A stretch of DNA of 64,000 nt from an uncultured Oscillospiraceae bacterium (GTDB taxonomy: Bacteria; Bacillota; Clostridia; Oscillospirales; Oscillospiraceae), in the NCBI GenBank assembly GCA_944386975.1, contig CALXDC010000002.1, forward strand, positions 35,532-99,531, given 5' to 3'. The position numbers were made by a program, and so were the translations under genes. The notes below the pieces were generated by a model, which was not told the origin of the DNA, did not search any database, and saw nothing but the letters and a program-made list of their open reading frames with translations. Each line of letters begins with the position of its first letter. The first letter of the stretch is position 1. Of this stretch, positions 5,305-43,918 are shown piece by piece.

Positions 5305-6532
5305 GATCAAAAACAGCAGAGCCTTCCGGATTTTTCTCTCCATTTTGGTGGCCGTTATCCTTTGGTTTTATGTCAACAATATGGACCCCAATCCCAGAGA
5401 GATGCCGGTGGACGACGTGCCGGTGGTGTTCATTGGAGAGGACCTTTTGATGGAGCGGGGCCTGATGATGGCGGACTGTTCCCACGACACAGTGGACCTG
5501 ACCCTCTCCGGCAACACCAGCGTCCTGGCCAAGCTGGACCCCCGGGACCTGACGGTGCAGGTGAACCTCAGCAGCATCACCACCACCGGTCAGCACTCCC
5601 TGAATTACGACGTGAATTTTCCTGACAGCGTCACCAAGAACATGATCGAAGTGAAGGGCGCCAACGTTCAGACCATTACCGTGGATATTGTGGAGCTCTA
5701 TAGCAAGACCATCTATATCCGGGGCGAACGTCTGGGCACTCCGGCAGAGGGTTTCATGGCCGGGGAGATGAGCTTCAGCGAGGATACCATTGTGGTCAGC
5801 GGCGAGCAGCTTGCGGTGAGCAACATCAGCTATGCCCGGGTCAGCGTGGACCTGGAGGGCGCCAGTGAGAATATCGTTACCGTGGCCGACTTTGACCTCA
5901 TCGACTTCAACGGCGACGTGGTGGACAAGAGCCTTTTCCGCACCAATGTGGAGAACGTCCAGGTGACGGTGCCCATCCTGCGGATCAAGGAACTGCCCCT
6001 GGAGGTCAAGTTCATCGAATCTCCCGGCTCCATGGTGGAGAATATCAAATGCAAGATCGAGCCCGAGAGCGTTACCGTGGCCGGGGCCAGCAAGAATATC
6101 TCCAAGCTGGAGTATATTCTGTTGGATGAGATTGACCTGAGCACGGTGACCCAAGACACCACCTTCACCATTCCCATTCCGCTCCCAGCCGGGTCCACCA
6201 ACCTCTCCGGGGAGGAGGAGGCCACCGTGACCATTACCTTCCAGAATATGGAAACTCGGATCCTCACCATCGACTCGGAGAGCATCAGCTATATCAACGA
6301 GCCAGAGGGCAAGACGGTGACGGTGGTTACCAATGAGATGGACGTGACGCTCCGGGGTCCGGCGGTGATTCTGGACGCGGTGGAGCCCTTCAATATTCGG
6401 GTGGTGGGGGATCTGTCCGACGTGACGGCGGACAACGGCGACTATGCCGTTCCCGCCGAGGTCTACCTGGACGGAACGGATTTGGCAGGGGCCATCGGCA
6501 CCTATCAGATCACCGTTCGGATTCAATCGTAA
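5297..6532 (+). CDS. cdaR: YbbR-domain protein CdaR, regulator of CdaA
   Basis: 411 aa. One N-terminal anchor (FRIFLSILVAVILWFYVNN, residues 10-28) is followed by tandem extracytoplasmic YbbR repeats, each about 80-90 residues with PV..I..ELPLEVKF-type strands. The gene overlaps cdaA by 8 bases, the canonical cdaA-cdaR arrangement, where CdaR binds and modulates the cyclase at the membrane. The repeat boundaries are approximate. Confidence 0.9.
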   Translation: MNKIKNSRAFRIFLSILVAVILWFYVNNMDPNPREMPVDDVPVVFIGEDLLMERGLMMADCSHDTVDLTLSGNTSVLAKLDPRDLTVQVNLSSITTTGQHSLNYDVNFPDSVTKNMIEVKGANVQTITVDIVELYSKTIYIRGERLGTPAEGFMAGEMSFSEDTIVVSGEQLAVSNISYARVSVDLEGASENIVTVADFDLIDFNGDVVDKSLFRTNVENVQVTVPILRIKELPLEVKFIESPGSMVENIKCKIEPESVTVAGASKNISKLEYILLDEIDLSTVTQDTTFTIPIPLPAGSTNLSGEEEATVTITFQNMETRILTIDSESISYINEPEGKTVTVVTNEMDVTLRGPAVILDAVEPFNIRVVGDLSDVTADNGDYAVPAEVYLDGTDLAGAIGTYQITVRIQS

Positions 6533-6545
6533 GCAGGAGGCAAGG

Positions 6546-6956
6546 ATGACCCAGACAGCAACTGTGGAGCGGCTTCTCGGCGACGGCCGGGTGTTGATCT
6601 CCGTGGCGCGGCAGACCGCCTGCGCCCACAACTGCGCCGAGTGCGCCGGCTGCGGCGGCCGCGCCGGATCTCTGGAGGTCCGGGCGGTGGACCGCATCGG
6701 CGGTGTATCGGTGGGGGAGAAGGTGCTGGTCCGCAGCGACAACCGCCCCCTCCTCACCACGGCGGCCCTGGTGTATCTGCTGCCGGCGGCGGCCTTCCTG
6801 GTGGGCTACGGTCTGGGGACCTCCCTGTCTCCGGCCCTCCACACTCTGGTGACCATAGCCGTCACCGCTCTGGGGGCCGTTCCCGCCCTGGTGCGGGACC
6901 GGCGCAGCCGGAGAGCCGGCGGCGTGGTGGCCTTCGAGATTGTGGGGCGGTTGTAG
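6546..6956 (+). CDS. SoxR-reducing / RseC-MucC family membrane protein
   Basis: 136 aa, ATG preceded by GGAGGCAAGG. A cysteine cluster CAHNCAECAGCGG (residues 24-36) is followed by a short beta domain and two transmembrane helices (about residues 66-85 and 90-110), the RseC/MucC layout. Homologues contribute to redox control or Rnf-type electron transfer. No rnf genes are in the window, so the role here is unspecified. The stop TAG overlaps the GTG of the following gene. Confidence 0.8.
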   Translation: MTQTATVERLLGDGRVLISVARQTACAHNCAECAGCGGRAGSLEVRAVDRIGGVSVGEKVLVRSDNRPLLTTAALVYLLPAAAFLVGYGLGTSLSPALHTLVTIAVTALGAVPALVRDRRSRRAGGVVAFEIVGRL

Positions 6957-34781: not shown

Positions 34782-34821
34782 GTTGTGCGAAATACGAAAA
34801 GACGAAAAAAGGAGAATGGGT

Positions 34822-35379
34822 ATGGGGATTTTGGAGCTGTTTCTCATCGGTATCGGGTTGTCTATGGACGCCTTTGCCGTGGCGGTGTGCAAGGGACTGG
34901 GGATGCGGCGGATCAACAAGGGGCAGGCGGTGGTGATTGCCCTGTTTTTCGGCGGCTTCCAGGCGCTGATGCCTCTTGTCGGCTGGGGCCTTGGGCGGCA
35001 GTTCGAGCGGTACATCACCAGCGTGGACCACTGGATTGCCTTTCTACTGCTTGCCTATATCGGTGGGAAGATGGTGTGGGAGGCCCTCCGGGGGGAGGAG
35101 AGCGTCTCCTGCGGATTTGACCTCAAGGAGCTTTTGATGCTGGCGGTGGCCACCAGCATCGACGCGCTGGCGGTGGGCATCACTTTTGCCTTTTTGAAGG
35201 TGGAGATCTTCTCCGCCATCACCATCATCGGCTGCACCACCTTTATGCTGTCTCTTCTGGGGGTAGTCATCGGCAACCGCTTCGGCAGCCGCTACCAACA
35301 GCGCGCGGAGATCACCGGTGGTGTGATTCTGATTCTCATTGGCCTGAAGATTCTCCTGGAGCATCTGGAAATCCTTTAA
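34822..35379 (+). CDS. mntP: Manganese efflux pump MntP
   Basis: 185 aa from the ATG at 34822, 7 bases after AAGGAG (an ATG at 34816 is too close). Six membrane helices in two inverted halves carry the conserved GLSMDAFAVAVCKG and TSIDALAVGITFAF motifs with membrane Asp residues needed for Mn transport. Length matches the family. Regulation by the Mn riboswitch immediately upstream fits its role. Confidence 0.94.
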   Translation: MGILELFLIGIGLSMDAFAVAVCKGLGMRRINKGQAVVIALFFGGFQALMPLVGWGLGRQFERYITSVDHWIAFLLLAYIGGKMVWEALRGEESVSCGFDLKELLMLAVATSIDALAVGITFAFLKVEIFSAITIIGCTTFMLSLLGVVIGNRFGSRYQQRAEITGGVILILIGLKILLEHLEIL

Positions 35380-35457: not shown

Positions 35458-36738
35458 TCACAGTGTGACAAGGCCGGCGTCCGCCATCTTTTGAAGGCTC
35501 ATCAAAATGCCGGTTTTCGCGTGATACCAGGTGAGGCCCCCCTGGAAGTAGACGGCGTAAGGGGGGCGGATGGGGCCGTCGGCGGAGAGCTCGATGGAGC
35601 TGCCCTGGACGAAGGCACCGGCGGCCATAATGACGTTGCTGTCGTAGCCGGGCATGGGCCAGGGCTCCGGGGTGACGTAGCTGTCTACCGGCGCGGCAGC
35701 CTGGATGCCCTTGCAGAAGGCCACCATGGCCGCCTCGCTGCCCAGCTCCACCGCCTGGATGATGTCATGGCGGGAGGCGGAGGCGGAGGGGACGCAGCGA
35801 AAGCCCAGCTGTTCATAGAGGCTGGCGGCGAAGATGGCACCCTTCAAGGCCCCGGCGGACACGGTGGGAGCCAGGAAGAAGCCCTGGAAGAGGGCGGGCA
35901 TCAGCCCCAGGTTGGCGCCCACCTCCTGGCCGAGACCGGGGGCGGACAGCCGGTAGCCGCAGCGGTCCACGCAGGATTTCGTCCCGCAGATGTAGCCGCC
36001 GATGGGGGCGAGGCCGCCGCCGGGGTTCTTGATGAGACTGCCCACCACCATATCGGCCCCCACGTCGGAGGGCTCCACCGTCTCCACAAACTCTCCGTAG
36101 CAGTTGTCCACCATGCAGATTACATCGGGCTTAATGGCTTTGCAGAAGGCGATCAGCTCCCCGATCTGTGCCACAGAGAAGGTGGGACGGGTGGCGTAGC
36201 CCTTGGAGCGCTGAATGGTGATGACCTTGGTCGTGGGGCCAATGGCGGCCCGGATGCCGTCATAGTCGAAGCTTCCGTCCTCCAGAAGGTCCACCTGCCG
36301 GTAGGTGACGCCGTACTCCGCCAGAGAGCAGGGGGAGGGACGGATACCGATGACCTCCTGGAGGGTGTCGTAGGGGGCGCCCACAGGAGAGAGAAGCTCA
36401 TCTCCGGGAAGGAGATTGGCGGAGAGGGCCACGGTGAGCGCGTGGGTGCCGCAGGTGATCTGGGGCCGCACCAGGGCTGCCTCTGTGTGAAATACGTCGG
36501 CGTAGACCTGTTCCAGCTTCTCCCGGCCCGCGTCGTTGTAGCCGTAGCCGGTGGTGGCGGCAAAGCAGGCCGCGTCCACCCGGTTTTTCTGGAAGGCCAA
36601 AAGCACCTTGGCCTGGTTGTACTCCGCCGTCCGGTCAATCGCTTCAAACCGGGGGCGCAGTGCCTCCAGGGCCGCCTCTCCCATCTCATAAACCGCCTTC
36701 CCGATGCCCAGGGAGGCATACAACGTCTGTCTCTCCAT
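35458..36738 (-). CDS. Methionine gamma-lyase family PLP enzyme (YnbB-like)
   Basis: 426 aa from the ATG at 36738. A longer start at 36765 (nine residues more) would sit about 8 nt from the predicted RNA start and lacks a ribosome site; AAAGGAA lies before 36738. Fold type I PLP enzyme with QITCGTHALTVALSANLLPGDE, CMVDNCYGEFVE and the Schiff-base lysine in VGSLIKNPGGGLAP, followed by QEVGANLGLMP. This is the family once annotated as aluminium resistance protein. Probably a C-S lyase; the substrate is not established. Confidence 0.85.
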   Translation of the reverse strand: MERQTLYASLGIGKAVYEMGEAALEALRPRFEAIDRTAEYNQAKVLLAFQKNRVDAACFAATTGYGYNDAGREKLEQVYADVFHTEAALVRPQITCGTHALTVALSANLLPGDELLSPVGAPYDTLQEVIGIRPSPCSLAEYGVTYRQVDLLEDGSFDYDGIRAAIGPTTKVITIQRSKGYATRPTFSVAQIGELIAFCKAIKPDVICMVDNCYGEFVETVEPSDVGADMVVGSLIKNPGGGLAPIGGYICGTKSCVDRCGYRLSAPGLGQEVGANLGLMPALFQGFFLAPTVSAGALKGAIFAASLYEQLGFRCVPSASASRHDIIQAVELGSEAAMVAFCKGIQAAAPVDSYVTPEPWPMPGYDSNVIMAAGAFVQGSSIELSADGPIRPPYAVYFQGGLTWYHAKTGILMSLQKMADAGLVTL

Positions 36739-36779
36739 CACGCCGACACTGTTCCTTTCTTCCATACAAATTCCGAACC

Positions 36780-36808
36780 ATGATACCACGGAGTCTCCCC
36801 CTTTTCAA
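36780..36808 (-). promoter_or_regulatory. SigA-type promoter of the methionine gamma-lyase-like gene
   Basis: Minus strand TTGAAA, 17-base spacer, TATCAT. Confidence 0.6.
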
Positions 36809-36907
36809 CGGTATTTTTGCCGATTTTTCCCTTTTTTTATTGAGATTCTTTCAGCGCTGGGGTGAGGGGGTGGGTTATGAATATTTTGTAAAACTATTCA
36901 TGCGGCC

Positions 36908-36936
36908 TTGTATAGACAGGGAAAGTGTGGTATACT
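36908..36936 (+). promoter_or_regulatory. Promoter of the OLE RNA
   Basis: TTGTAT, 17-base spacer, TATACT. Predicted start near 36943 coincides with the 5' arm of the RNA's closing helix. Confidence 0.7.
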
Positions 36937-36942
36937 AAGTGA

Positions 36943-37603
36943 CGCTAAGCAGCGGCGCAGTATCCTAGTCGGAGCTGCCGTTTCTGAAGAAGGGCCTAAA
37001 AATCCTTTTAAGGGCATAGCTGTGAAACCCTTGGTGCCTGCTTCTTACGCCCAGTTTGGGGTGGGTGCTGAGCGGGAAACGCGGAACCCCGCGTTTGCGG
37101 CGGTAGGGCGTTCTCCAATGGCATGGGGAAGCCGACCCTACCGTCGTGGAGACCTGGACTTGTGCGAGGGCGAACTCCCCTGGTGGTACCCCGACCTTCG
37201 TACGACCCAGGCTGGAACCTGCATTGCGGTGGGACCCGGCCTTTGCGCCGGCGCTGTGTGCAGAGTAGCCTTCCTTGCGTGGACCCGCGCGGATCAGCGC
37301 GCCGAGACACTGCCGCGCCCCGGCCAGGGACGGCGTGTGGAGCGCTTTGAAACCGGGCCTGCAAAAGAGGATAGGAGACGGTAAGGCCGCTGTGGAAATC
37401 ACCTAGGCTGTCATTCCATGGGCAGGCGGAGGGTTGCAGTGCGGACTGAGTGGCAGTCGGGTACCGCGGTCGGCAACGCCGCGGCTGGGCGCTGAAAGGG
37501 AAACCACCTGATCGGCAACGAGAGGCGCGCTCTGGGGAAAGCCAACCCGTACCTAAGCCGTAAGATTACCTCTGCCTGTTGCCGCTGCGTAGCATCTCTC
37601 TTT
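36943..37603 (+). ncRNA. ole: OLE RNA (ornate large extremophilic RNA)
   Basis: About 650 bases with no credible coding frame but strong structure. The two ends pair: GCTAAGCAGCGGC (36944-36956) with GCCGCTGCGTAGC (37581-37593), 12 of 13 positions, followed by CTCTCTTTTTTG. Internal hairpins include AAACGCGG/CCGCGTTT (37077-37096), CGGTAGGG/CCCTACCG (37101-37143) and CCGCGG/CCGCGG (37464-37484). The nonamer TCGGCAACG occurs twice (37470, 37512). Size (~610 nt is typical) and position directly before an OapA-like gene and dxs-tlyA-nadK-argR-recN are those of OLE RNA, which forms a membrane ribonucleoprotein involved in stress responses. RNase P and tmRNA signatures are absent. Exact ends are inferred. 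Confidence 0.85.
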
Positions 37604-37648
37604 TTTGTATGGAATTTTTGAAGTAACAAGTATGTGAGGAAAGAAACT

Positions 37649-38212
37649 GTGGAGACCCAGGAGAACGAAAAAAGAAAGAAAAAGCGGGAGGCGGGCCGGT
37701 TCAGCTGGCCCATTCGCGTCTTTTTCATCGCGGTAGCCCTGTCGGCGGCGCTGAGCCTGGCCTCCGGGCAGCTGCTGGGGCGGGCCACTTTGCCGGTGTC
37801 CTTCCTCATTCTTTTTGCTTTTATTGCGCTGGGCGTCCTTTTCGATGTGGTGGGCGTGGCGGTGACCACCGCCGACGAGCGCCCCTTCCACTCCATGGCC
37901 TCCCACCACCGGCCGGGGGCCAGGGAGGCCCTGCGCCTCATTCGGAAGGCCGGACAGGTCAGCAGCTTCTGCAACGACGTGGTGGGAGATATTTGCGGTA
38001 TTGTCAGCGGCGCCACCGCTGCCGCAGTGGTGACGGCTCTCAGCCGCACCTTCTCTCTCAGCAGTGTGCTGTTATCTCGCGTCGTCACCGCTCTGGTCTC
38101 CGGTCTCACCATCGGGGGCAAGGCGGTGGGCAAGCTCATCGCCATTGAAAAGAGCACGGCGGTGGTGTATGCGGCAGGCAGGTTTTTACATCTGTTCAGC
38201 AGAAAAAGGTAG
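37649..38212 (+). CDS. oapA: OLE-associated membrane protein OapA-like
   Basis: 187 aa from the GTG at 37649, chosen for AGGAAAG 5 bases upstream (an in-frame GTG at 37634 is the alternative). A very basic N-terminus (ENEKRKKKREAGR, residues 5-17) precedes about four membrane helices: IRVFFIAVALSAALSLASG, ATLPVSFLILFAFIALGVLFDVVGVAV, a central ICGIVSGATAAAVVTAL, and SRVVTALVSGLTIGGKAVGK. The FDVVGVAVTTADERPFHSMAS segment recalls the DUF21/CNNM membrane domain of OapA. The basic tail could contact the RNA. Encoded right after the OLE RNA and 10 bases before dxs. Confidence 0.82.
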   Translation: METQENEKRKKKREAGRFSWPIRVFFIAVALSAALSLASGQLLGRATLPVSFLILFAFIALGVLFDVVGVAVTTADERPFHSMASHHRPGAREALRLIRKAGQVSSFCNDVVGDICGIVSGATAAAVVTALSRTFSLSSVLLSRVVTALVSGLTIGGKAVGKLIAIEKSTAVVYAAGRFLHLFSRKR

Positions 38213-38222
38213 GGGGATCTCT

Positions 38223-40082
38223 TTGCTACTGGATACCATTCGGTCCCCGGAGGACCTGAAGAATCTGGATAAAGGCCAGCTGGAACAGCTGTGCGGGGAG
38301 CTGCGGACCTTCCTGGTGGACAGTGTCTCCCGCACCGGCGGCCATCTGGCCTCCAATTTGGGCGCGGTGGAGCTGACGGTGGCCATCCACCGGGTGTTTG
38401 ACACCGGGCGGGACCGCCTGGTCTTCGACGTGGGCCACCAGTGCTATGTCCACAAGATTCTCACCGGCCGGAAGGACCAATTCAATACCCTCCGCCAGCT
38501 GGGAGGCATCGCTGGATTTCCCAAGCCCTTGGAGAGCGTCCACGACGCCTTTGTGGCTGGGCATGCCTCCAACAGCGTGTCTGTGGCCCTGGGCATGGCC
38601 CGGGCCCGCACCCGGCTGGGGGAGGATTATGCGGTGCTGGCTCTCATTGGCGACGGCGCCCTCACCGGCGGCCTCAGCTACGAGGGCCTCAACGACGCAG
38701 GGGCTTCCAACGAGCCCCTCATCGTCATCCTCAACGACAACGGCATGTCCATCAATCCCAATGTGGGGGGCGTGTCCAGCCATCTTGCCTACATCCGCAC
38801 CAGAGCCAGCTACTACCGGTTCAAAAAGCACTATCGGGAGACCCTGGCCCGGCTGCCGGGGGGGCGGAGGCTATACCGCTTCAACCACCGAATCAAAACG
38901 GCGCTGAAGAAGATGTTCTGGCCCTGCACCATGTTTGAGGACATGGGCTTTACCTACTTAGGGCCGGTGGACGGCCACAATGTGGAGCAGCTGTGCCACA
39001 CCCTGCGGTGGGCCAGGGAGCTGAGCTGCCCGGTGCTGATCCATGTAAAGACCCAAAAAGGGAAGGGCTACGCCCCGGCGGAGCGGACCCCGGACGCCTA
39101 CCACGGGGTGGGTCCCTTTGACAAGGAAAAGGGCATTTCACCTGCTGCGGCAAACGACTTTTCCGCCGCCTTCGGCCGCGCTATGGAGAAACTGGCGGCG
39201 GAGGATGGACGGGTGTGCGCCATCACCGCCGCCATGGAGTCGGGGACAGGGCTGGTGGACTTCGCCCGGTACCACCCCGACCGGTTTTTCGATGTGGGCA
39301 TTGCCGAGGGCCACGCGGTGAGCATGGCCGGCGGCATGGCCAAGCAGGGGATGATTCCCGTCTTCGCCGTCTACTCCAGCTTCCTCCAGCGGGGATACGA
39401 CATGCTGCTCCACGATGTGGCGCTGCAGAATCTCCACGTGGTGCTGGCGGTGGACCGGGCGGGGCTGGTGGGAGCTGACGGGGCGACTCACCATGGCGTG
39501 GCGGATATTGCCTTTCTCTCCCCCATCCCCAACTTCACGGTGCTGGCCCCCGGCAGCTTTGCCGAGCTGGAGGATATGCTCCGCCAGGCGGTGCTCTATA
39601 CGGAGGGCCCTGTGGCGGTGCGGTACCCCAGAGGGGGACAGGGGGCGTATAAGGAGCCCTGGAACTGTGAGGACAGCCTCCGGCTCAAAAAGGGGACGGA
39701 TGTGACCATTGTCACCTACGGCACTCTGATCAACGAGGTGTTGGAGGCGTGCCGCCTTCTGGAGGCGGCGGGCATTCAGGCGGAGATTCTCAAGCTCAAC
39801 ACCCTGGCCCCCCTGGTGGCGGAGCCGGTGATTTGGAGCGTTCAGAAGACAGGAAAGCTGGTGGTGGTGGAGGACTGCTTTGCCGTAGGTTCCATCGGCC
39901 AGCAGCTGTGCGCCGCTCTGGCCCGGAGCGGCGTGGCGCCCAGGGCGGTGCGTCTGCTCAACTGTGGGGACAGCTTCGTGCCCCAGGGCACCGTGGCCCA
40001 GCTGCGGCAGGCGCTGAAGCTGGATGGACAGGGGATCTATGAAACGGTATGCGAGGTGTGCAATGGCCAAAGTGAGACTTGA
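38223..40082 (+). CDS. dxs: 1-deoxy-D-xylulose-5-phosphate synthase
   Basis: 619 aa from the TTG at 38223 after AGGGGG, which matches the usual Dxs N-terminus (LLDTIRSPEDLKNL). Thiamine-diphosphate motif GDGALTGGLSYEGLNDAG, substrate histidines in SRTGGHLASNLG and FDVGHQCYVHKIL, and the transketolase pyrimidine domain are intact. It makes DXP from pyruvate and glyceraldehyde-3-phosphate, the first step of the MEP isoprenoid pathway. Overlaps tlyA by 20 bases. Confidence 0.96.
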   Translation: MLLDTIRSPEDLKNLDKGQLEQLCGELRTFLVDSVSRTGGHLASNLGAVELTVAIHRVFDTGRDRLVFDVGHQCYVHKILTGRKDQFNTLRQLGGIAGFPKPLESVHDAFVAGHASNSVSVALGMARARTRLGEDYAVLALIGDGALTGGLSYEGLNDAGASNEPLIVILNDNGMSINPNVGGVSSHLAYIRTRASYYRFKKHYRETLARLPGGRRLYRFNHRIKTALKKMFWPCTMFEDMGFTYLGPVDGHNVEQLCHTLRWARELSCPVLIHVKTQKGKGYAPAERTPDAYHGVGPFDKEKGISPAAANDFSAAFGRAMEKLAAEDGRVCAITAAMESGTGLVDFARYHPDRFFDVGIAEGHAVSMAGGMAKQGMIPVFAVYSSFLQRGYDMLLHDVALQNLHVVLAVDRAGLVGADGATHHGVADIAFLSPIPNFTVLAPGSFAELEDMLRQAVLYTEGPVAVRYPRGGQGAYKEPWNCEDSLRLKKGTDVTIVTYGTLINEVLEACRLLEAAGIQAEILKLNTLAPLVAEPVIWSVQKTGKLVVVEDCFAVGSIGQQLCAALARSGVAPRAVRLLNCGDSFVPQGTVAQLRQALKLDGQGIYETVCEVCNGQSET

Positions 40083-40863
40083 CGTGCTGCTGGTGGAGCA
40101 GGGACTCCAGGAGAGTCGCCAGAAGGCCCAGGCCACCATCATGAGCGGCCAGGTGTTTGTCAACGGCCAGCGGGTGGACAAGCCGGGTACCGCCGTGGCG
40201 GCGGACGCCCAGATCGAGGTCCGGGGCGGCGGCCTCAGATATGTGAGCCGGGGCGGCTTGAAGCTGGAGAAGGCCATGGAGATCTGGCCCATCACCCTGG
40301 AGGGAAAGATCTGTATGGACGTGGGGGCCTCCACCGGCGGTTTTACGGACTGCATGCTCCAAAATGGGGCGGTGAAGGTCTACGCCATCGACGTGGGCTA
40401 CGGCCAGCTGGCCTGGAAGCTCCGCAGCGACAGCCGGGTGGTCTGTCTGGAGCGTACCAACGCCCGGTATCTGAGCCATGAGCTGATTTCTGAGGAGCCG
40501 GACTTCTCCTCGGTGGATGTGAGCTTCATCTCCCTGAAGCTCATTCTCCCTGCCATCGCCGCCGTTTTAAAGGCGGGAGGCCAGGTGGTGTGTCTGGTGA
40601 AGCCCCAATTCGAGGCGGGGAAGGAGAAGGTGGGCAAGAAGGGGGTGGTCCGGGACCCCGCCGTCCACCTGGAGGTGCTGGAGCACTTTCTCGGGCACGC
40701 GAAGGAGAGCGGCTTTACGGTTCTGGATCTGACATACTCCCCCATCCGGGGCCCGGAGGGGAACATCGAGTACCTGGGCCATCTGCGGCTGGGCGCGGGG
40801 GAGGAGCGCTCCTTTGACCTGGCCAACCTGGTGGAGGAATCCCACCGTGTGTTGAAGGAGTGA
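40063..40863 (+). CDS. tlyA: TlyA-family rRNA (cytidine-2'-O)-methyltransferase
   Basis: 266 aa from the ATG at 40063, which gives MAKVRLDVLLVEQGLQESRQKAQATI, the S4 RNA-binding domain (residues 1-65). A FtsJ/RrmJ-type methyltransferase follows with MDVGASTGGFTDCML (SAM motif) and KPQFEAGKEKVGKKGVVRD. It methylates rRNA ribose; hemolysin is an old misnomer. Standard position between dxs and nadK. Confidence 0.92.
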   Translation: MAKVRLDVLLVEQGLQESRQKAQATIMSGQVFVNGQRVDKPGTAVAADAQIEVRGGGLRYVSRGGLKLEKAMEIWPITLEGKICMDVGASTGGFTDCMLQNGAVKVYAIDVGYGQLAWKLRSDSRVVCLERTNARYLSHELISEEPDFSSVDVSFISLKLILPAIAAVLKAGGQVVCLVKPQFEAGKEKVGKKGVVRDPAVHLEVLEHFLGHAKESGFTVLDLTYSPIRGPEGNIEYLGHLRLGAGEERSFDLANLVEESHRVLKE

Positions 40864-40865
40864 CC

Positions 40866-41735
40866 ATGAAGAAGGTGATTTTGTGCCCCAATCCCTACCG
40901 GGACAAGGGGCTTGCGGCGGCCAGAGAGGCGGCGGAGATTCTCAAGGAGGCGGGCATCCGGACGGTGGCCTGTCTGCCCTTCCGAATGGAGGGCCAGGAC
41001 TGCGGGATGGAAACCCGGCCTCTTCAGCAGGAGCTCCGGGGCAGCGACATGATCATCGCCTTCGGCGGCGACGGCACCATCCTCCATCTGGCCAAGACGG
41101 CCGCCACCCACGCCCTGCCGGTGCTGGGGGTGAATTTAGGAAGCCTCGGCTTCATGTCGGAGCTGGAGCGCAACGAGATGCACCTGCTGCGCAATCTCTC
41201 CACCGGGAACTTCACCCGGGAGCGGCGGATGATGATGGACGTCACCGTGGAGCGGGAGGGCCAGAAGGTCTACAATAACATCGGCCTCAACGACGCGGTG
41301 GTCACCAAAGGGGCTGTGGCCCGGGTGATCCGGATGAACGTGTTTGTGGGAAATTCCCGGATGGGTCTTGTGGAGGGGGACGGCATCGTGATCGCCACTC
41401 CCACCGGCTCCACCGCCTATTCCCTGTCCGCCGGCGGCCCCATCGTGGAGCCGGTGGCCCGGAATTTTGTGGTAAGTCCCATCTGTGCCCACTCCATGCA
41501 CTCCAATTCCTATGTGCTTTCCGCCGCCAACACCATCACCGTGGTCCCCAAGGATGTGGGGCGCAAGCCGGTGTTTTTATCTGTGGATGGTGGGCGGGCC
41601 TTCTCCCTTCGGGCGGAGGACCGGGTGGTGATCCGGACCTCCCGCTTTGAAACGGAGCTGATCCGCCTTTCCGATAAGAGTATATTTGATATTTTGCGGA
41701 CGAAGATGACAGGAGAAACCCATCATGAAGAATGA
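40866..41735 (+). CDS. nadK: NAD kinase
   Basis: 289 aa from the ATG at 40866 (GTG at 40860 possible; GAAGGAG fits 40866). FGGDGTILHLAK holds the GGDGT motif and catalytic Asp; NDAVVTKG and DGIVIATPTGSTAYSLSAGGPIV complete the NAD site. It phosphorylates NAD to NADP. Overlaps argR by 11 bases. Confidence 0.95.
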   Translation: MKKVILCPNPYRDKGLAAAREAAEILKEAGIRTVACLPFRMEGQDCGMETRPLQQELRGSDMIIAFGGDGTILHLAKTAATHALPVLGVNLGSLGFMSELERNEMHLLRNLSTGNFTRERRMMMDVTVEREGQKVYNNIGLNDAVVTKGAVARVIRMNVFVGNSRMGLVEGDGIVIATPTGSTAYSLSAGGPIVEPVARNFVVSPICAHSMHSNSYVLSAANTITVVPKDVGRKPVFLSVDGGRAFSLRAEDRVVIRTSRFETELIRLSDKSIFDILRTKMTGETHHEE

Positions 41736-42177
41736 ACGGCAGAACAAAATCTTAGAAATCATTCAGAAAGAGGACATCGACACCCAGGAGATGCTGCTGG
41801 ACCGGTTGGAGCGCATGGGCATTACCTGCACCCAGGCTACCATCTCCCGGGATATCAAGCAGCTCCATCTCATCAAGGAGCCGGTGGGACGGGGAAAGTA
41901 CCGCTACGCCATCTCCATCCACCGCAACAGTCTCAATGTGGCGGACAAGCTGCGGACCATCTTCCGGGAGAGCATTACCAGCATCGACTATGCGGAAAAC
42001 ATCGTGGTGATCAAGACCATGGCGGGCCTCGCCAGCGCGGCGGCGGCGGCCATCGACGGCATGCACATCACCTACATGGTGGGGAGCCTGGCCGGGGACG
42101 ACACCGCCCTTCTGGTCATGCGGGACAAGGAGTCCGCGGCGGTGTTCGCCGAGGAGATCAAGGACATGCTGAAGTGA
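41725..42177 (+). CDS. argR: Arginine repressor ArgR/AhrC
   Basis: 150 aa. N-terminal winged helix (RQNKILEIIQKEDIDTQEMLLDRL, then CTQATISRDIKQLHLIK) and C-terminal hexamerisation/arginine-binding domain with AAAAIDGM and GSLAGDDTALLVMRD. It represses arginine synthesis and activates catabolism when arginine binds. Located between nadK and recN as in most Firmicutes. Confidence 0.94.
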   Translation: MKNERQNKILEIIQKEDIDTQEMLLDRLERMGITCTQATISRDIKQLHLIKEPVGRGKYRYAISIHRNSLNVADKLRTIFRESITSIDYAENIVVIKTMAGLASAAAAAIDGMHITYMVGSLAGDDTALLVMRDKESAAVFAEEIKDMLK

Positions 42178-42217
42178 CCGGTCCCTTGGGAAAACCGGCG
42201 GGGAGGAGGCGGCGGAG

Positions 42218-43918
42218 ATGCTGCAGCTGCTGCATATTGAGAATATCGCGGTGATCGAGGAGGCGGACATCACCTTCGCCCGGGGCTTCAACGCCCTCAC
42301 CGGTGAGACTGGGGCCGGCAAGTCCATCGTCATCGACGCCATGGGCGCGGTGCTGGGTCAGCGGACCAGCCGGGATCTCATCCGCACCGGGGCCGCCAAG
42401 GCCTTCGTCAGCGCTCTCTTTACCGGTGTGCCGCCCCTGTCCGTTCTGGAGGAGAACGGCATCGTCCCGGAAAACGGGGAGCTGATCCTCCAGCGGGAGA
42501 TCTACGGCGACGGGAAAAACGCCTGCCGGGCCAACGGAAGACCCATCACCGTGGCCCAGCTGCGGCAGATCGGCAGCGGCCTTCTCAACATTCACGGCCA
42601 GCACGACGGCCAGCTTCTCCTGGATGAGGAGCGCCATTGCGGCTACCTGGACAGCTTCGGCAGGGTTTTTCCTCAGCTGGAGTCCTACCAGACCTGCTAC
42701 CGCGCCCTGGAGGAGATCCGGCGGAAGATTCGGAGCCTCAGAATGGACGAGGCGGAGCGGGCGCGGCGAGTGGACGCTCTGGAGCACCAGATCGAGGAGA
42801 TTGAACGGGCGGACCTGCGGCCGGGGGAGGAGGAGGCCCTGCTGGAGCGGCGGAACCTCCTTCGCAACAGTGAAAAGTTTCTCTCCGCCGTCCGGGGCGC
42901 CGCCTTCTACCTCAGCGGCGACGAGGACACCACCGGGGCCGTGGCCCTGCTGGAGGAGGCGGAAGGCGCCCTCAGCGGCGCCCGGGGGCTGGGGGACAGG
43001 TTCCTCCAGCTGGCGGAGCGGCTCAACGCTCTTCGGAGCGAGGCATGGGATATCGCTGAGACTGTCCGGGACATGGAGGCGGAGTTGGATTTCTCCCCCG
43101 GGGAGCTGGATGCCATCGAGAGCCGGACAGACCTCATCTACCGTCTGAAGAAGAAGTACGGCGCTACCGTGGAGGAGGTGCTGGACTTTCTGGCCAAAAG
43201 CCAGGAGGAGCTGGACCGGATTCAATTTGCCGACGATACCATCGCCCGGCTGGAGAAGGATTTGGAAAAGGCGGAGCGGAAGGTGGAGAAGGCCGCCGCC
43301 GTGCTGACGGAGGCCCGGAAGGCCGCCGCCACCGTGCTGGAGGGGCGGATCCAGGAGGAGCTTCGCCAGCTGGATATGCCCAAGGTACGCTTCGCCATCT
43401 GCTTTTCTCCCTGCGAGCCGGGGGAGACCGGGGCGGACCAGGTGCGCTTCCTCATGTCCGCCAACGTGGGGGAGGACCTGAAGCCCATTCAGAAGATCGC
43501 CTCCGGCGGCGAGCTGGCCCGGATCATGCTGGCCCTGAAAAACGTGCTGGCGGAGAACGAGTCTGTGGGCACTATGGTCTTCGACGAGGTGGACACCGGC
43601 GTCAGCGGCCGGGCTGCCCAGAAGGTGGCGGAGAAGCTGTGCCAGGTGTCCCGCACCAAGCAGGTGCTCTGCGTAACCCATCTGCCTCAGCTGGCCGCTA
43701 TGGCCGACACCCACTTCTCCGTGGAGAAGGGGGAGCGGGACGGCAGAACCTACACCCGGGTGGTGGAGCTGAGCCGGGTGGAGCGGCGGCAGGAGCTGGC
43801 CCGCCTCACCGGCGGCGCCCACATCACCGAGGCCCAGCTTACGGGCGCTGAGGAGCTGATCCGCGCCGCCGAGTGCTACAAGGCTTCCCAGGGCCTGCGG
43901 CCGGATAAAACCAAGTAA
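42218..43918 (+). CDS. recN: DNA repair protein RecN
   Basis: 566 aa SMC-like ATPase. Walker A at residues 29-36 (GETGAGKS), HGQHDGQLLLDEERHCGYLD, two coiled-coil arms (about 150-350), signature KIASGGELARIMLALK and Walker B VFDEVDTGVSGRAAQKV. It acts early in double-strand break repair. Preceded by GGGGAGGAGG; last gene of the OLE-dxs block. Confidence 0.95.
   Translation: MLQLLHIENIAVIEEADITFARGFNALTGETGAGKSIVIDAMGAVLGQRTSRDLIRTGAAKAFVSALFTGVPPLSVLEENGIVPENGELILQREIYGDGKNACRANGRPITVAQLRQIGSGLLNIHGQHDGQLLLDEERHCGYLDSFGRVFPQLESYQTCYRALEEIRRKIRSLRMDEAERARRVDALEHQIEEIERADLRPGEEEALLERRNLLRNSEKFLSAVRGAAFYLSGDEDTTGAVALLEEAEGALSGARGLGDRFLQLAERLNALRSEAWDIAETVRDMEAELDFSPGELDAIESRTDLIYRLKKKYGATVEEVLDFLAKSQEELDRIQFADDTIARLEKDLEKAERKVEKAAAVLTEARKAAATVLEGRIQEELRQLDMPKVRFAICFSPCEPGETGADQVRFLMSANVGEDLKPIQKIASGGELARIMLALKNVLAENESVGTMVFDEVDTGVSGRAAQKVAEKLCQVSRTKQVLCVTHLPQLAAMADTHFSVEKGERDGRTYTRVVELSRVERRQELARLTGGAHITEAQLTGAEELIRAAECYKASQGLRPDKTK

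Follow-up and report, generated by a model that had tools for sequence, protein, structure and literature searches.

The 64,000-nucleotide stretch of DNA analysed here (the window), from an uncultured Oscillospiraceae bacterium, carries an OLE RNA gene at 36936-37601 on the forward strand. To our knowledge, OLE is among the largest structured bacterial RNAs for which no biochemical function is known. In a search with the Rfam covariance model, OLE (RF01071) matched this interval over model positions 1-616 of 616 with 364.3 bits and an E value of 1.9e-103, the Rfam cut-off for OLE being 50 bits. It was the sole Rfam match at gathering threshold across the 64 kb, and the window's genome (G000; the other 10 genomes of the genus are numbered G001-G010) holds a single copy. 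A first-pass annotation had read an interval of about 650 bases here as OLE RNA and proposed the Rfam check, and the end-to-end match showed that this identification was correct. The annotation let the locus start at 36908, where the -35 box of the promoter indeed lies, but the RNA itself begins near 36936-36944. Coverage of model positions 1-616 marks the gene as the full-length form with P7-P9, neither variant 1 nor variant 2 as defined in the accessible text of PMC11332333, and a shortened variant was thereby ruled out.

Compared with the RF01071 RNAs of Halalkalibacterium halodurans, Clostridium acetobutylicum and C. botulinum, the window's OLE shared the whole model, the terminal helix and the position of oapA directly on its 3' side. 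It differed by three insertions that the model lacks (20, 15 and 16 bases), the 20-base one being a perfect hairpin as judged by eye, by a G+C content of 63%, and by an altered UUUAC near the 3' end. The strands of the terminal helix lie at 36944-36956 and 37581-37593 on the forward strand and pair at 12 of 13 positions, which is the complementarity of the RNA ends noted in the first-pass annotation.

The promoter described there was also present, with TTGTAT (36908-36913) and TATACT (36931-36936) separated by 17 bases on the forward strand. A strict sigma-70 scan of 36800-38300 returned no promoter, the pair matching 8 of 12 consensus bases where 9 are required, so the support for the ole promoter comes from conservation. 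Of 81 sequences, 67 carry the looser pattern TTGnnn-N16-18-TAnnnT upstream of ole, where 6.2 would be expected. These 81 upstream regions were taken from 68 of the 77 OLE-positive loci described below, which had enough upstream DNA, and from 13 genomes; 3 of the 81 were duplicates. Further upstream, an inverted repeat (TGAATA-N11-TATTCA) occupies 36878-36900. Its strict pattern was seen in 7 of the 81 regions, with L090 and G004 being one sequence and 0.0 expected, and the repeat was rejected as a general ole operator because it occurs in these 7 regions only; judged from sequence, it may at most be an element confined to this genus. The repeat persists in G006, a congener that has lost ole, and could be a regulator site.

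Downstream of OLE, oapA (37649-38212, forward strand) encodes a basic membrane protein of 187 aa, and its GTG start codon is preceded by GAGGAAAG. The DxxxD motif reads DVVGD (D110-VVG-D114), and both aspartates were invariant in 28 aligned proteins, namely the window's and those of 27 of the 80 loci described below. A CNNM match to the window's OapA reached 22.3 bits, under the Pfam cut-off of 28.4, and CNNM was detected in 22 of the 28 proteins at E<=0.01. The protein had no NCBIfam match, and its best PDB match had an E value of 0.81. When it was aligned with six other OapA proteins, as had been suggested, identities of 38-71% were obtained and no notable difference from the known CNNM-like membrane partner of OLE was seen, the likeness extending to size, basic N-terminus, weak CNNM similarity, DxxxD and place.

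On the same strand follow dxs (38223-40082; TIGR00204, 684 bits) and then tlyA, nadK, argR and recN (40024-43918; domain matches), a conserved block outside the RNP whose order after the membrane protein had been read correctly from the start. The divergent upstream neighbour, a methionine gamma-lyase-like PLP enzyme on the reverse strand (35458-36744; PF06838, 577 bits), served as a synteny anchor. The window also encodes an MntP-type manganese efflux pump (34816-35379; PF02659, 186 bits), another metal transporter near OLE.

The search for OapB and OapC proposed in the first-pass annotation showed that both are encoded in the genome. OapB is encoded on contig C92, flanked by map and infA (neighbours identified by eye); the one PDB match that it gave at E<=0.01 was 7k9b, OLE-associated protein B (E 1.7e-6), and it had no Pfam match. 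The OapC gene is on contig C13, immediately upstream of rpsL, and the best match of its protein was YbxF (E 1.7e-13). Since OLE, OapA, OapB and OapC all occur in one genome, the core OLE system is complete, as the annotation had concluded. Within the genus, OapB was present in 10 of 11 genomes, missing in G001 and kept in all four genomes that lack OLE, and an L7Ae-type protein was present in 11 of 11, its place being confirmed for the window's genome. Ribosomal protein S21 (bS21, encoded by rpsU) is a reported accessory partner of the OLE RNP. Its gene was present in 8 of the 11 genomes, including the sister G004, and was not found in the window's own genome (a draft of 90.5% completeness), G005 or G008.

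To place the locus among its relatives, OLE and OapA were followed beyond the genus. OLE was found in 67 of 197 sampled genomes of the window's order, a sample for which >=90% completeness was requested and strict filters were applied. The OapA alignment scan yielded at least 569 relatives, of which the best 80 were retained; 43 of these 80 were labelled Oscillospiraceae, while most others were other Clostridia and two were labelled Bacilli. Named genera among them were Oscillibacter, Dysosmobacter, Papillibacter, Sporobacter and Anaerofustis, and many isolate names pointed to gut samples. An HMM built from 13 OLE sequences detected OLE in 77 of these best 80 loci at E<=1e-5, some of the loci being clipped by contig ends. 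OLE was not found at L149, L159 and L169, where 101, 567 and 6,000 bases, respectively, were covered upstream of OapA, and Rfam detected OLE in 10 of 11 submitted loci, L169 being the miss. Locus L119, from the cultured Papillibacter cinnamivorans DSM 12816, reached 504.8 bits. C. acetobutylicum and C. botulinum are mesophiles. OLE structures from C. acetobutylicum (accessible parts of PMC12286853) and C. botulinum (as cited in the available text of PMC12265935) have been published, and 2,822 Bacillota genomes have OLE according to a GTDB survey, in which gut clades carrying shortened variants are also named (PMC11332333, accessible text). The proposal that a mesophilic gut host would widen the range of OLE therefore did not hold; such a host was rejected as news, and a gut host is ordinary for OLE.

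Two loci were arranged differently. In L169 (Anaerofustis stercorihominis DSM 28733), an OapA-like gene at 5995-6549 scored 222 bits with an OapA profile that includes this protein and had no Pfam match; the next gene is tlyA-like, with FtsJ and S4 domains, and no OLE was found within 12.5 kb. In G013, mfd (TRCF, CarD and helicase domains) takes the place of oapA after OLE (L078:9830-10464, 403.7 bits), and a profile search found no OapA within the 10.7-kb stretch. The order OLE-oapA-dxs was also present outside the genus in G011, G014 and G018. The arrangement is thus old, which suggests that OLE is ancestral to the genus.

Within the genus, OLE was found in 7 of 11 genomes, the window's included, and OapA in the same seven, so that G003, G006, G007 and G009 are without both. 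Completeness was 95-96% for G006 and G009 and 79-81% for G003 and G007. In all four, the gamma-lyase gene and dxs lie on one contig, a profile search found no OapA in the gamma-lyase-dxs stretches, and an ole-type promoter was seen by eye directly before dxs. G006 is the freshest deletion and the one clear scar. From 36876 to the -10 box it is identical to the window at 60 of 61 bases, and its dxs protein is 87% identical. In G006, roughly the first 90 bases of OLE survive in decayed form (score 25, reached by 0 of 1000 shuffles), together with a remnant of the oapA 3' end (score 57 against the window's genome, shuffle maximum 26); the oapA remnant stood above shuffles with G004 as reference too, and did not with the other three references. 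For G007, 1 of 5 comparisons rose over the shuffle maximum; the match is 19 bases long and lies directly before dxs, so it is not necessarily oapA. Outside the shuffle comparison, a 28-base match extends from the -10 box of G007 into the beginning of OLE. In G003 and G009, no ole or oapA remnant rose over the shuffle maximum (0 of 5 comparisons each); the shuffles in all five comparisons per genome preserve base content only.

A locus tree was built from dxs, tlyA, nadK, argR and recN of 17 genomes; G005 contributed dxs alone, and the set lacked argR and recN for G002, dxs for G019 and tlyA for G015. The nodes G000+G004+G006, G005+G007 and G003+G009 each had a support of 100, and deeper nodes were weak (54-65). 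Given these three nodes, and if OLE is ancestral, ole-oapA was lost at least three times in the genus. The same patchiness could arise from repeated gain by transfer into one site, and the interleaving of OLE-bearing and OLE-lacking genomes over the weak deep nodes, together with the absence of remnants over shuffles in G003 and G009 and the single 19-base case in G007, would suit such gain. However, the decayed OLE 5' end and oapA 3' end in G006, the ole-type promoter before dxs in the four OLE-minus genomes and the gene order common to other genera argue against transfer, which we consider unlikely. Repeated loss is thus the preferred reading of the genus.

The joint loss pattern was not found in the accessible literature on OLE with OapA, gut or MpfA. 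The nearest statement in the accessible portions of PMC11332333 / PMC12265935 concerns apparently defective ole genes in rare organisms without OapA. Some further features were seen at these loci. In L074 (G005:C244), the contig repeats itself in inverted orientation, so that OLE is present twice and dxs is truncated at either end; this duplication most probably arose in assembly, and L074 was counted as one locus. G003 encodes an 82-aa AbrB/MazE-type DNA-binding protein (L057:3594-3842; PF04014, 27.9 bits) in the interval from the gamma-lyase gene to the ole-type promoter, and a similar frame was seen by eye in G009 (L058).

Other readings of the interval itself were weighed. OLE sits between promoter and oapA on one strand, and the scan of 36800-38300 found no terminator-like site between OLE and oapA, as expected if the RNA were a cis-acting 5' leader controlling oapA-dxs and not a free RNA. 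In studied species, however, OLE is an abundant non-coding RNA with a processed 3' end (PMC11332333, in the text available), and in G013 a high-scoring OLE precedes mfd without OapA in its stretch, which makes a mere leader very unlikely.

A decaying relic, heading to loss as in the sister G006, could be suspected from the score, since the genus has 8 OLE matches in its 7 OLE-bearing genomes, and 364.3 bits is the lowest score among them (the rest reached 367-427). Also, of the 205 columns that do not vary in the other 11 sequences, the window's genome and G004 deviate at 4, 2 of these common deviations sitting in the conserved UUUAC near the OLE 3' end, and the gene is gone from G006. Yet 142 of 155 model pairs are standard in the window's OLE, and 643 of 666 bases are identical to those of its nearest relative G004, with 2 gap columns, a divergence of 3.5% where dS was 0.37 in oapA and 0.43 in dxs. 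In the same comparison, oapA had a dN of 0.026 and a dN/dS of about 0.07. These values indicate that RNA and OapA are under selection in this lineage, and a relic is accordingly highly improbable; sequence comparison points to strong constraint on OLE.

The structure was examined by covariation in 11 OLE sequences (the window's, 6 congeners and 4 from the same family or order, with G013 and G017 omitted), using the Rfam structure, mapped via the window's own Rfam alignment, plus the terminal helix. The results showed that 88.6% of cells form standard pairs and that 84 of 168 pairs vary on both sides, values reached by 0 of 500 shuffles and 0 of 6 slid versions; in the terminal helix, 7 of 13 counted pairs vary on both sides and 79% of cells are paired. 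Although the frame at 36908-37384 is open for 158 aa, the chance of a protein gene is negligible, because relatives carry 1- and 2-base insertions inside the ORF and the base-pair covariation matches OLE, in agreement with the first-pass reading of the interval as non-coding.

The relation of OLE to MpfA-type transporters was then considered. MpfA, CorC and CorB (CNNM + CBS + CorC_HlyC) resemble OapA in that their CNNM domain is weakly similar to it, and are protein-only, unlike the OLE RNP. In a CNNM scan (E<=0.01), all 4 OLE-minus genomes of the genus and 5 of the 7 with OLE, among them the window's genome (contig C7), had an MpfA-type protein, and none was found in OLE-bearing G001 (86% complete) and G010 (93%). 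The proteins fall into three types, G000/G004/G006 (94-97% identical; that of G004 ends early at 197 aa), G005/G007/G008 (78-94%) and G002/G003/G009 (66-94%), with 26-45% identity between types; one tested member of each type had CNNM, CBS and CorC_HlyC domains. Because each type spans OLE-minus and OLE-bearing genomes, each loss has an MpfA type in common with an OLE-bearing congener. The third group is the weakest part of this argument, standing beside MpfA-less G001 and G010: G002 groups with these two at 100 in the locus tree, so there was either a loss of MpfA in that group or more than one gain.

Across the 197 genomes of the order, with MpfA called as CNNM at E<=1e-10, 12 had OLE and MpfA, 55 OLE only, 123 MpfA only and 7 neither (Fisher P 5e-29, kinship ignored), and 12 of 67 OLE-bearing genomes thus also hold MpfA. 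An OLE-MpfA anticorrelation across Bacillota has been published (PMC11332333, accessible text) and is repeated here within one order; the same paper reports that H. halodurans has no mpfA. According to unpublished data mentioned in a review, some OLE phenotypes are rescued by some MpfA proteins, and vice versa (PMC12265935, in the part available). The joint losses, with MpfA in each, fit the published proposal that MpfA can replace OLE, as a correlation and not a proof.

Taken as a whole, the locus is best explained, and we hold this with considerable confidence, as a full-length OLE gene with its own promoter and oapA on the 3' side, with a presumed RNP role and a presumed overlap with MpfA. 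Transcription of OLE RNA would start from this promoter. By analogy with other species, the RNA would dimerise, OapA would hold it at the membrane, and OapB and OapC would bind; the RNP may then aid tolerance of high Mg2+, cold, alcohols and poor carbon sources. The membrane RNP, the RNA dimer and these stress roles are described in the accessible parts of PMC11332333, PMC9723947, PMC12265935 and PMC12286853. We infer that the RNP and MpfA-type transporters may overlap in function. Where MpfA is present, the RNP would become dispensable and ole-oapA could be deleted as a unit; the ole promoter would stay after the deletion and then serve dxs.

The genus may accordingly form a replacement series, in which MpfA came first, three or more deletions of ole-oapA followed, every one of them on the background of a different MpfA type, and the promoter was left driving dxs; the window's genome and G004 would represent the stage with both systems and G006 a fresh deletion. 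We give this series somewhat less than an even chance, as it is weakened by the third group, in which the shared MpfA is only 66% identical and whose OLE-bearing member groups with MpfA-less G001 and G010.

As a member of its family, the locus is ordinary, a further example of the known OLE system. The part useful to specialists is the repeated joint loss of ole and oapA with MpfA present in each case. Near relatives with and without OLE, including G006 with its promoter in place, offer a natural experiment on OLE function, and such pairs allow the proposal that MpfA replaces OLE to be tested by close comparison and not by phylum-wide correlation.
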